Shown piece after piece: positions 28,903-59,919 of a DNA stretch of 64,000 bases (the stretch's first letter is position 1; every line of letters starts with the position of its first letter). The stretch is from Halorubrum sp. PV6 (GTDB lineage: Archaea; Halobacteriota; Halobacteria; Halobacteriales; Haloferacaceae), in the NCBI RefSeq assembly GCF_003990725.2, contig NZ_CP030064.1, positions 558,001-622,000 of the forward strand, read 5' to 3'. A program made the position numbers and the translations under genes. The notes beneath the pieces are model-generated. The model saw only the letters and a program-made list of their open reading frames with translations. It had not been told where the DNA came from and searched no databases.

Positions 28903-30585
28903 TCAGTCGTCCGCGACCGCGTCGGGGTCCGCGTCCGTGGCGTCTGCCTCCGCCGCCAGCAGGCGGTCCAGCCCGTCCACCATCGCGACGACGCTGGCGC
29001 GCGTGATGTCCGCGTCCGTCGAGGAGACGCTCACGGAGCGGTCGCCCCGCGAGAGGTCGACCTCGACCGTGACGACGGCGTCGGTCCCGCCCGTGATCGC
29101 GTCGACGTGGTACGAGTCGAGTTCGAAGGAGACGCCCTCTCCCGCCGCGTCGTCCGCGAGTGCGGCCCGGACCGCTTCCAGTCCGGCGTCGACGGGCCCG
29201 GCGCCCGTGCCGGAGGCGACGCGCTTGTCGTCGCCGATGCGGAGCCGGACCGACGCGGTCGGGAGGTTCCCGCCGGAGGTGGCCGAGAGGTCGACGAGTT
29301 CGACGTGTCGGTCGCGCTCGCGGCCCTGCACGTCTTCGGTGATCGCGAGCAGGTCGGCGTCGGTGACGCGCTTCCCGCGGTCGCCGAGCTCTTTCACCCG
29401 GCGGACGACCTCGCTCAACTCGTCGTCGTCGACCGCCACGTCGTGCTCGGCGAGGGCCGCCTTGACGCCCGCGCGCCCGGCGTGTTTCCCGAGGACAAGC
29501 CGTCGCTCGCGGCCCACGCGCTCCGGCGGATACGGCTCGTACATCGTCCCGTCTTTCAGCGTGCCGTCGGTGTGGATGCCCGACTCGTGCGCGAAGGCGT
29601 TGGCGCCGCAGACCGCCTTGTTCGGCGGGAGCGCGACGCCGGTCGCCTCGCTCACGGTCCGGCAGAGCCGGTAGAGCCGTTCCAGATCGACGGTGTCGAT
29701 GTCGTAGGAGCGATTGAGCGCGATGGCCACCTCCTCTAAGGCGACGTTGCCGGCGCGCTCGCCGACGCCCATGACGGTCCCGTGGACCGTGTCGGCGCCG
29801 GCCTTCAGCCCGGCGTGGACGTTCGCCACGCCGAACCCGAGGTCGTCGTGGGTGTGGAGGCTCGTCGGGCCCAGGTCGGCGAGCCGCGAGACGACTTCGG
29901 CGGTCCGCTCCGGATCGGCCGCGCCGACGGTATCGCAGTAGCAGATCCGGTCGGCGCCGGCGTCGAGCCCGGCGCCCAGCAGCCGTTCGAGGTAGTCGAG
30001 TTCGGCGCGCGAGCCGTCCTCCCCGAGCACCTCGACCCAGAGGCCGTGGTCTTTCGCGTACTCGACGAGTTCGACGGTCGTCTCGACGACCGCCTCGCGG
30101 GTCGAGCCGACCTTCGTCTCGACGTGCTTGTCGGAGGCGGGCACGACCAGATTGACGCCGTCGACCCCGCAGTCGAGGGCGTGGTCGATGTCGGCTTGCA
30201 CGCCGCGGGCGAAACTCGTCACGGTGGCGTCGAGCCCCTCGTCGGCCACGCGGCGGATGGCCTCGCGTTCGCCCTCGGACGTGCACGCCGAGCCGGCCTC
30301 GATCAGGTGCATCCCGGCGGCGTCGAGTTCGCGGGCGATGTCGACCTTCTCGCTCGGCGTGAGCGAGACGCCCGGCATCTGTTCGCCGTCGCGCAGCGTG
30401 GTGTCTAACAGCTGTACCTCGTCGAGTGTGGTGAGTGGTGTTCGGGTCAAAAGAGAGTCCGTCGGCTTGTCAGTAGGTTCGGGACCGGTACCGCCGCGGG
30501 GCGGCCGCGCCCCGGAGTCGTTATCGTCGGAGAATTTCGCGGCCAGCCGCCGTGAGGCGACTTCCTCTATCCTCCGAACGATCAC
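28903..30585 (-). CDS. 2-isopropylmalate / (R)-citramalate synthase family enzyme
   Basis: A HMGL-type TIM barrel plus LeuA allosteric domain, 560 residues from GTG 30585. Motifs: LLDTTLRDGEQMPGVSL, the metal-binding HTHDDLGFGVAN, GTVMGVGERAGNVALEEVA, and the C-terminal regulatory domain with SFELDSYHVDAITGGTDA. Haloarchaea usually carry two such enzymes, for leucine and for isoleucine via citramalate; this divergent form resembles the citramalate type, but the substrate is not certain. The first 45 residues are extra and low in conservation. A TATA box (TTTTATC, about 30635-30629 on the minus strand) supports the GTG start, though a TTG at about residue 46 is possible. Confidence 0.9.
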   Translation of the reverse strand: MIVRRIEEVASRRLAAKFSDDNDSGARPPRGGTGPEPTDKPTDSLLTRTPLTTLDEVQLLDTTLRDGEQMPGVSLTPSEKVDIARELDAAGMHLIEAGSACTSEGEREAIRRVADEGLDATVTSFARGVQADIDHALDCGVDGVNLVVPASDKHVETKVGSTREAVVETTVELVEYAKDHGLWVEVLGEDGSRAELDYLERLLGAGLDAGADRICYCDTVGAADPERTAEVVSRLADLGPTSLHTHDDLGFGVANVHAGLKAGADTVHGTVMGVGERAGNVALEEVAIALNRSYDIDTVDLERLYRLCRTVSEATGVALPPNKAVCGANAFAHESGIHTDGTLKDGTMYEPYPPERVGRERRLVLGKHAGRAGVKAALAEHDVAVDDDELSEVVRRVKELGDRGKRVTDADLLAITEDVQGRERDRHVELVDLSATSGGNLPTASVRLRIGDDKRVASGTGAGPVDAGLEAVRAALADDAAGEGVSFELDSYHVDAITGGTDAVVTVEVDLSRGDRSVSVSSTDADITRASVVAMVDGLDRLLAAEADATDADPDAVADD

Positions 30586-55190: not shown

Positions 55191-55323
55191 GGTCGGATGG
55201 ATGTGGAGTTCCGCGGGCGCTGCGCGGCTGCGATCGGCGCTTTCGAAGCCGCCCGGAACGATTTCTGTGCGAACGTCACGTCTCCGCCGGACGGGGGTGT
55301 GATATTTGTCGCTACTCCCCGTA

Positions 55324-55330
55324 TTTTATA
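55324..55330 (+). promoter_or_regulatory. TATA box of a candidate small RNA
   Basis: TTTTATA within CCCCGTATTTTATATC. It lies about 24 bases before the predicted RNA start near 55351 and does not fit any protein gene: the next plus-strand CDS is thousands of bases away. Confidence 0.55.
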
Positions 55331-55350
55331 TCATCCCCGGTAAGCAATCA

Positions 55351-55437
55351 GTAGACGCCCGAGCGTTCGGGCGTCGGCCGTAGGACTGGTACTCCATACG
55401 GCGGCTTGGTCAGCTTCGGCCCTCACGGGCCGTTTTT
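55351..55437 (+). ncRNA. Candidate structured small RNA with its own promoter and terminator
   Basis: About 87 bases with three predicted hairpins. The first pairs GACGCCCGA with TCGGGCGTC around GCGT (55354-55375). The second pairs GCCGTA with TACGGC (55377-55402) and continues GGA/TCC with a bulged A and the loop CTGGTAC. The third is the terminator CGGCCC-TCAC-GGGCCG followed by TTTTT (55417-55437). It lies in the convergent gap before the asparagine-synthase-like gene. The function is unknown; it is not a tRNA, and no C/D or H/ACA boxes are clear. The T run overlaps the stop codon of that gene. Confidence 0.55.
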
Positions 55438-56588
55438 CAGGGCGCCCCCGACTCCTCCAGCAGCGCGTCCAGATACTGCCCGACGTGGTCGTCCATCCGC
55501 CGTTTAAACCCCGCCTGCCGCGCGAGCCGGTCGAGTTCCCGCGAGACGTACGTGCCGTACTGGACCGCCTTCTTGTCCGCCGTCCGGACCGACTCCGGAA
55601 CCCGGCCGCGCGCCGCCCGGCGGAGCGCGATTTTCCGGTCGCCGTCGGCCGCGAGCAGTTCGCCGGGCAGGGCGAGGGCGGCCGCAACCACCCGGTCGTC
55701 GAGCAGCGGCGCGACCGGTTCGACCCCGGCGGCACGCAGCGCGAGCACGTCGCGTTCGAGTTGGTCGGGGAGGCTCCGGACGGTCTCGGTCCGCGCGCCC
55801 CGAACCGTCTCCGCCGCGACCCGGTCGTCGCCGGCGGGAGCGACGACCTTGCTGTAGCCGCCGAACAGTTCGTCGGCGCCCTGCCCCACCGCGAGCCGGT
55901 CGAATCCGTCGGCCGCCGCCGCTTCCGCGGCGAGGTACAGCGGGACGGCGATGGCCACGTCCATCGGGTTTCGGCGGCCGGTCGCCGCGGCGACGGCCCG
56001 GACCGCGCGCAGGAGGTCCTCGTGAGTGATTTCGATGACCCGGAGTTCGAGTTCCATCTCCGCGGCGGCCTCGCGGGCGGCCGTCACGTCGTGACAGCCC
56101 TCGAACCCGGCGACGTAACAGGGTGTGTCTGAGACCGCGGCGGCGACGACCCCGGAGTCGACGCCGCCGGAGAAGGCGATTGCGAGGTCGCCTCCCGGCC
56201 CGTCGGGGTCCACGTCGCCGAGTGCGGAATCGAGCGCGCGGTCGACTGCGGCCTGTCCTGCGTCCGGCTCGACCGGCCCGTCCTCGGGGAGCGACCAGAC
56301 GCGTTCGGTCCCCGTCCCCCACACGACGCTCCCGGCCGGAACGGGTTCCGGGTCGTCGAGGTCGGTCCGGTCGAAACTCCACGCGTCGAGGGGCGTTCGG
56401 TCGCGTTCGACGAACAGCGGCTGGCGGCCGAGCACGTCGCGAACGAGGACCGGCCCCTTGCGGTTCGGGGGGTCACGGAGGCGTCCGGCGAAGCCGCGAC
56501 CGCCGGGAAGCGGGTCGCCGTCGCGAATGGCGTTGCGGACGTGTTCGGGGGACGCGCCGCGCAGGTCGGCTGTGGTATTGGGGTCCAT
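55437..56588 (-). CDS. Asparagine synthase-like protein with a degenerate glutaminase domain
   Basis: A 383-residue protein. The C-terminal part is an AsnB-type ATP-pyrophosphatase: FSGGVDSGVVAA PP-loop near residue 140, GQGADELFGGY and an EKxL-type late region. The N-terminal 110 residues resemble the glutamine-amidotransferase fold (VLVRDVLGRQPLF) but lack the catalytic Cys2 after the initiator Met, so ammonia would have to come from elsewhere or the enzyme has another amide or carboxylate substrate. It begins 5 bases after a PHP gene's stop codon and is probably in its operon. Confidence 0.85.
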   Translation of the reverse strand: MDPNTTADLRGASPEHVRNAIRDGDPLPGGRGFAGRLRDPPNRKGPVLVRDVLGRQPLFVERDRTPLDAWSFDRTDLDDPEPVPAGSVVWGTGTERVWSLPEDGPVEPDAGQAAVDRALDSALGDVDPDGPGGDLAIAFSGGVDSGVVAAAVSDTPCYVAGFEGCHDVTAAREAAAEMELELRVIEITHEDLLRAVRAVAAATGRRNPMDVAIAVPLYLAAEAAAADGFDRLAVGQGADELFGGYSKVVAPAGDDRVAAETVRGARTETVRSLPDQLERDVLALRAAGVEPVAPLLDDRVVAAALALPGELLAADGDRKIALRRAARGRVPESVRTADKKAVQYGTYVSRELDRLARQAGFKRRMDDHVGQYLDALLEESGAP

Positions 56589-59520: not shown

Positions 59521-59919
59521 CTGTCTTTCCCACGGGCTCAGTGTCCCACGACCTACGTAAACCCTCCTGTCTTCCTGCGGTCGGCGCTCGGTCGCTGCCC
59601 GTCTCTGTCCCGACTCCGCCCCGCCGGCGTCACCGACGCAATCCCACCGGAACCGGCCGAGCGGGCCACACGAACACGCTTAAGAACCCCCACGCCGACC
59701 GTTCGAACGGGAACAGCACAGCTGCAGATCCGACGCGCCGGGGTCTTTTCGCCCACGGCTTGGGAATGTAGCAGTGCGCCGACGCCTCCGGCGTCGCGGT
59801 CGGACGAGCCGTTCACGCGGCCGGTCCGGTCGGATCGCTCGCGTTCGCGAGCCGTCCGTCAGCCGCGTCACGCGGAGTCGCGGTCACGTTGCGGTTGTGC
59901 CGTTCCAACCAGATACACA
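59521..59919. other. Long leader/intergenic region upstream of rps15
   Basis: No gene is seen. GCTTAAGAAC at about 59679-59688 is the best TATA-like box on the plus strand, predicting a start near 59705 and a leader of about 215 bases for the rps15 message. Within it are hairpins such as GACGCC-TCC-GGCGTC near 59788 and CGCG-rich stems. The nhaC promoter lies at the left end. A long leader is unusual here, where most genes are leaderless. Confidence 0.45.

Follow-up and report, generated by a model that had tools for sequence, protein, structure and literature searches.

The plus strand of the window (the whole 64,000-nt stretch of Halorubrum sp. PV6 DNA that we analyzed) carries a conserved, structured and apparently non-coding locus equipped with candidate promoter and terminator elements, and this locus is very probably a real non-coding RNA gene. 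We favor, with moderate confidence, an independently transcribed small RNA gene of the Haloferacaceae whose product would act in trans through a hairpin loop and the unpaired linker that follows it. The predicted RNA spans 55352–55437 (~84–86 nt), its 5′ end being placed by spacing from the TATA box; the ~26 nt between that box and the first stem would suit a start near 55352–55354.

Reading the letters directly, we found every part that a sequence-only reading of the locus had described (a TATA element, a 9-bp stem, a bulged second stem and a terminator hairpin followed by five T residues), each at the position it had given. All lie on the plus strand. The TATA element, TTTTATA (55324–55330), belongs to a box, ATTTTATA (55323–55330), that is preceded by a further candidate promoter box, ATATTTGTCGCTACT (55302–55316). 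Sequence and predicted fold place hairpin 1 (55354–55375) at the 5′ end of the predicted RNA, with GACGCCCGA (55354–55362) and TCGGGCGTC (55367–55375) forming 9 perfect base pairs around a GCGT loop. Hairpin 2 (55377–55402 in the fold) consists of GCCGTA (55377–55382) and GGA, a CTGGTAC loop, then TCC, a bulged A and TACGGC (55397–55402); its conserved apical segment is GGACTGGTACTCC, and the loop segment carries GACUGGUGCUC. After the unpaired linker GGCTTGGTCAG (55403–55413) comes hairpin 3, a terminator-like structure (55417–55437) seen in both sequence and fold, made of CGGCCC (55417–55422), TCAC and GGGCCG (55427–55432) and ending in TTTTT at 55433–55437.

Comparison of relatives points to a promoter belonging to the RNA itself, with the TATA and upstream boxes conserved in register. 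The TATA box is nearly invariant in the Halorubrum alignment and TTTTTA-like elsewhere, and the upstream box recurs in about 20 genera as ATATTKG or AATTKG, at a fixed ~20–25 nt before the T-run ends, reaching up to 2 bits per position among 31 representatives. These loci were aligned gap-free on the TATA T-run, whose conservation is thus partly by construction; the upstream box served as a tie-breaker for the anchor in one of two alignments, and the other, made without the tie-breaker, also shows it. A search of the PV6 genome for the upstream box and its flank at up to 2 mismatches returned no second copy. Across at most 41 Halorubrum loci, the mean majority-base fraction was 0.89 in the promoter and 0.86–0.94 in the RNA segments, versus 0.59 in the upstream spacer and 0.64 in the downstream DNA (the end of the upstream coding sequence, where alignment gaps lower the value, was left out).

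The predicted structure appears to be under selection. Plus-strand 55345–55445 folds into the three hairpins described at −48.2 kcal/mol (z −3.67), and none of 200 dinucleotide-preserving shuffles folded as well. For the 6-bp outer stem of hairpin 2, examined in a 37-column core of 21 distinct sequences, 4 of the 6 pairs are altered on both sides, giving 20 compensatory cells against a shuffle mean of 6.9 (0/500 as high); one of the six pairs is invariant and hence uninformative. The covariation score of this stem is 0.227 versus a shuffled mean of 0.137 (0/500), and sliding the partner strand lowers it to at most 0.124. Hairpin 1 and the terminator hairpin vary in sequence between genera, hairpin 1 being a GACGC/GGCGC-type stem of different sequence outside Halorubrum, and most of the 32 representatives are predicted to fold into the same shapes (mean z −2.6); stems 1 and 3 were judged by these recurring predicted folds, the pair-by-pair covariation figures being those of stem 2 alone. 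The sequence-only reading had staked its proposal on the hairpins being conserved and compensated in relatives, and the proposal came through this comparison, with the hairpins conserved and stem 2 compensated. The conserved promoter boxes and hairpins likewise support its suggestion of a small RNA with its own candidate promoter and an intrinsic-terminator-like end.

The least variable parts of the RNA are the hairpin-2 loop segment and the linker GGCUUGGUCAG. The loop segment has the consensus GACURGURCUC, with the variants GUCAGG/GUCUGG in one genus (g40) and AAGGUGCUC in another (g49). The linker is nearly invariant and is replaced only at two AT-rich loci (L192 and L193), where the new linker pairs into an extended terminator stem and the loop stays. 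An H-type pseudoknot between GACURG in the loop and UYGGUC in the linker looked plausible at first, being kept by variants in several genera; its pairs never vary in the 21-row alignment, which is therefore uninformative on this point, and we rejected it on finding it broken in g40, in g49 and at L192/L193. Also set aside was the fold chosen by RNAalifold on the first MAFFT alignment, in which stem 1 was misaligned. At four loci (L053, L058, L054 and L189), the bases separating hairpin 1 from hairpin 2 (for example, GGUAAGGA or GGCA) appear complementary to the 3′ tail beyond the terminator hairpin (UUUCCUU, UGCC). A long-range closing helix is possible at these loci, which are of Halobellus, Salinigranum and Halogeometricum types; it is absent in Halorubrum.

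To map the distribution of the element, we combined blastn, covariance models and a pattern scan. With 55300–55445 as query, blastn gave a syntenic match in all 34 other same-genus genomes and, among 24 genomes of other genera, one weak match within a coding gene. Covariance model R1, built from the blastn-found elements and resting on the RNAalifold structure from that first MAFFT alignment, recovered the element from 51 of the 52 genomes of the genus and, elsewhere in the family, from 31 genomes belonging to other genera. With model R2, a curated core of hairpin 2 and the linker alone, 20 of the 28 genera in the GTDB family yielded matches that were strong or syntenic; most genomes held a single strong one, indicating a single-copy element. 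Presence in 51 of 52 genomes of the genus and in 20 of 28 family genera goes far beyond chance. The other eight genera gave no convincing covariance-model match, which argues that the RNA is not essential.

The pattern scan of named genomes matched Haloferax, Halobellus, Halogeometricum, Halogranum, Haloprofundus, Halonotius and Halohasta, as well as Haloparvum, Halalkalirubrum, Halegenticoccus, Halobium, Salinigranum and Natronocalculus; six bacterial matches in the same scan are apparently due to chance. L192 and L193 (46–47% GC) fall in the same GTDB genus as Halobellus, and their source is probably Haloquadratum. In other families of the order, R2 found nothing convincing: order-wide weak matches (24.5 bits, model positions 4–23) in another family were rejected as closely similar sequence inside what seems to be one conserved gene, and viral matches of the core pattern were dismissed as chance. 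Plasmids yielded no match to the element. One Halorubrum genome also holds a 38-nt partial second copy (L036, G009:C19:48999-49036; 90% identity, E 1.4e-6), which covers the 3′ arm of stem 1 and the hairpin-2 loop and is flanked by apparent SurE-like and carA-like genes, the latter by its 3′ end.

We next consider the genomic neighborhood, on which several alternative readings turn. At nearly every locus whose stretch is long enough, a UDG-superfamily gene (PF03167; 54486–55190, plus strand, in the window) directly precedes the RNA in the same orientation. This arrangement would fit a structured 3′ untranslated region of the UDG-superfamily mRNA, or a product of its processing, and we consider such an origin very unlikely, as the RNA has its own conserved candidate promoter and persists at three loci near which no UDG gene was found (L091/L184 of Halalkalirubrum, L192 and L193). 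The UDG tree lacked the resolution to say where the RNA was gained or lost.

On the other side, the convergent neighbor in the window is a minus-strand gene with an Asn_synthase domain (PF00733) and its stop codon at 55437–55439. The sequence-only reading had noted that the RNA overlaps this stop codon and had raised antisense control of the convergent mRNA end; the overlap is real, but it amounts to only about one base (55437, the last T of the tract). Nor is the gene a conserved partner of the RNA across genera: among the loci checked, it lies downstream in Halorubrum and, ~1.3 kb away, in Haloparvum, and near the AT-rich L193, but nowhere else, and no opposite-strand gene shows a conserved overlap. 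Elsewhere, by our reading of the translations outside Halorubrum, the next gene is acyl-CoA synthetase-like, DnaJ-like or MBL-fold when convergent and MBL-fold or rpoL-like when co-directional. Contact between the final T of the RNA and the stop codon is the one feature that speaks for a cis-antisense regulator of the asparagine-synthase-like mRNA, a role that we regard as having next to no chance of being correct.

The same variation bears on whether the RNA is a leader, attenuator or riboswitch of a downstream gene, as its hairpins followed by a terminator might suggest. The next gene does lie on the same strand in Salinigranum, Natronocalculus and the AT-rich L192, but it is convergent, and of varied identity, in Halorubrum, Haloferax, Haloprofundus, Halogranum, Halobium and Halegenticoccus, and no conserved co-directional gene follows the RNA. 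Since the downstream genes differ in both identity and orientation, a leader or riboswitch function is highly improbable. Together, the varied neighborhood and the loci lacking UDG argue against cis-antisense control, a leader or riboswitch and a mere 3′ untranslated region.

We also looked for coding potential and for membership of known RNA families. The predicted transcript contains no ATG or GTG; its single TTG starts a frame that stays open across the terminator, and the length of hairpin 2 differs by single bases among relatives, both pointing to the lack of a conserved protein-coding frame. Searching Rfam 15 at the gathering score detected no family at the locus or at the loci of nine relatives, bearing out the sequence-only statement that no known RNA family fits. 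As for C/D and H/ACA guide RNAs, no Rfam family matched, and no RUGAUGA was seen on reading the sequence.

How might such an RNA act? Studied haloarchaeal sRNAs pair with mRNAs and change their stability or translation. By our proposed mechanism, hairpin 1 would protect the 5′ end of the RNA and hairpin 3 would end transcription, and the hairpin-2 loop (...RGURCUC) and linker would be two exposed, nearly unchanging surfaces through which the RNA acts in trans; the likeliest mode is base pairing with one mRNA or a small number of them, which would change how stable they are or how well they are translated. For base pairing in trans as such, we see the chances as even. Searching for exact complements, we found no other site in the PV6 genome for the loop (12-mer) and one other place for the linker (11-mer), with no gene common to genomes. 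Matches to the loop complement exceed a reversed control, an excess that probably reflects codon usage (GAG TAC CAG). An exact 11–12-mer search neither supports nor excludes mRNA pairing with mismatches.

The main rival to mRNA pairing is that the RNA binds protein or serves as a scaffold, as part of a small RNP or by sequestering an RNA-binding protein, with the loop and linker forming a protein site rather than mRNA seeds. Across 20 genera the loop and linker are nearly constant while the stems drift, strong constraint over unpaired bases also fits protein binding, and exact 11–12-mers revealed no conserved complementary site. Against this, the RNA matches no known archaeal RNP family in Rfam, and the linker is replaced at the two AT-rich loci where the loop is retained; we hold this explanation to be possible but doubtful. 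Rather unlikely, in our judgment, is the broader proposal of a new, family-wide haloarchaeal RNP or housekeeping-type RNA, whose loop and linker would be recognized by a dedicated protein or by core machinery and whose ATATTKG-box promoter would be specialized.

Haloarchaeal sRNAs are a known kind of molecule; the RNA reported here adds one with wide conservation, and main texts yielded no description of it. In Haloferax volcanii, 145 intergenic sRNAs have been reported, most of those tested were not conserved, and of 27 examined, 22 were specific to the species (PMC3956466). The studied sRNA132 and s479 are, like the RNA here, haloarchaeal, intergenic, small and non-coding, and have been linked to transporter mRNAs (PMC6560208, PMC8155600); neither was found in a second haloarchaeal genome (PMC3956466, table 5), whereas the present RNA keeps a fixed architecture across 20 genera. 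Three conserved H. volcanii sRNAs, H225.2R, htsf_359 and hts10, are likewise present in >10 haloarchaeal genomes (PMC3956466). They sit at HVO_1727s2, HVO_2520s and HVO_2213s (PMC3956466) and not beside HVO_1038, the UDG gene of H. volcanii (PMC9997560), directly downstream of which gene order in other Haloferax suggests that the homologue of our RNA lies. HVO_1038 is named in the literature as a UDG, and we found no mention of an RNA there (PMC9997560), supplementary tables aside; such tables may nonetheless list the H. volcanii homologue without further comment.

Comparative target work on H. volcanii sRNAs is hard because these are mostly species-specific. Here, one architecture recurs in 20 genera including Haloferax, together with its candidate promoter and exposed motifs, providing a covariance model and a clear deletion target, and the many genomes with the RNA allow comparative target prediction. 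The cross-genus comparison also argues against the straightforward antisense role to which a single genome's sequence had pointed. Other structured haloarchaeal RNAs conserved across genera are leuA-Halobacteria and S15-Halobacteria (Rfam), cis-regulatory leaders of a fixed downstream gene, unlike the RNA here, which has no such gene and matches neither family. Both families occur elsewhere in the window above their gathering scores, leuA-Halobacteria at 30529–30581 (minus strand) and the S15-Halobacteria leader at 59707–59777 (plus strand).
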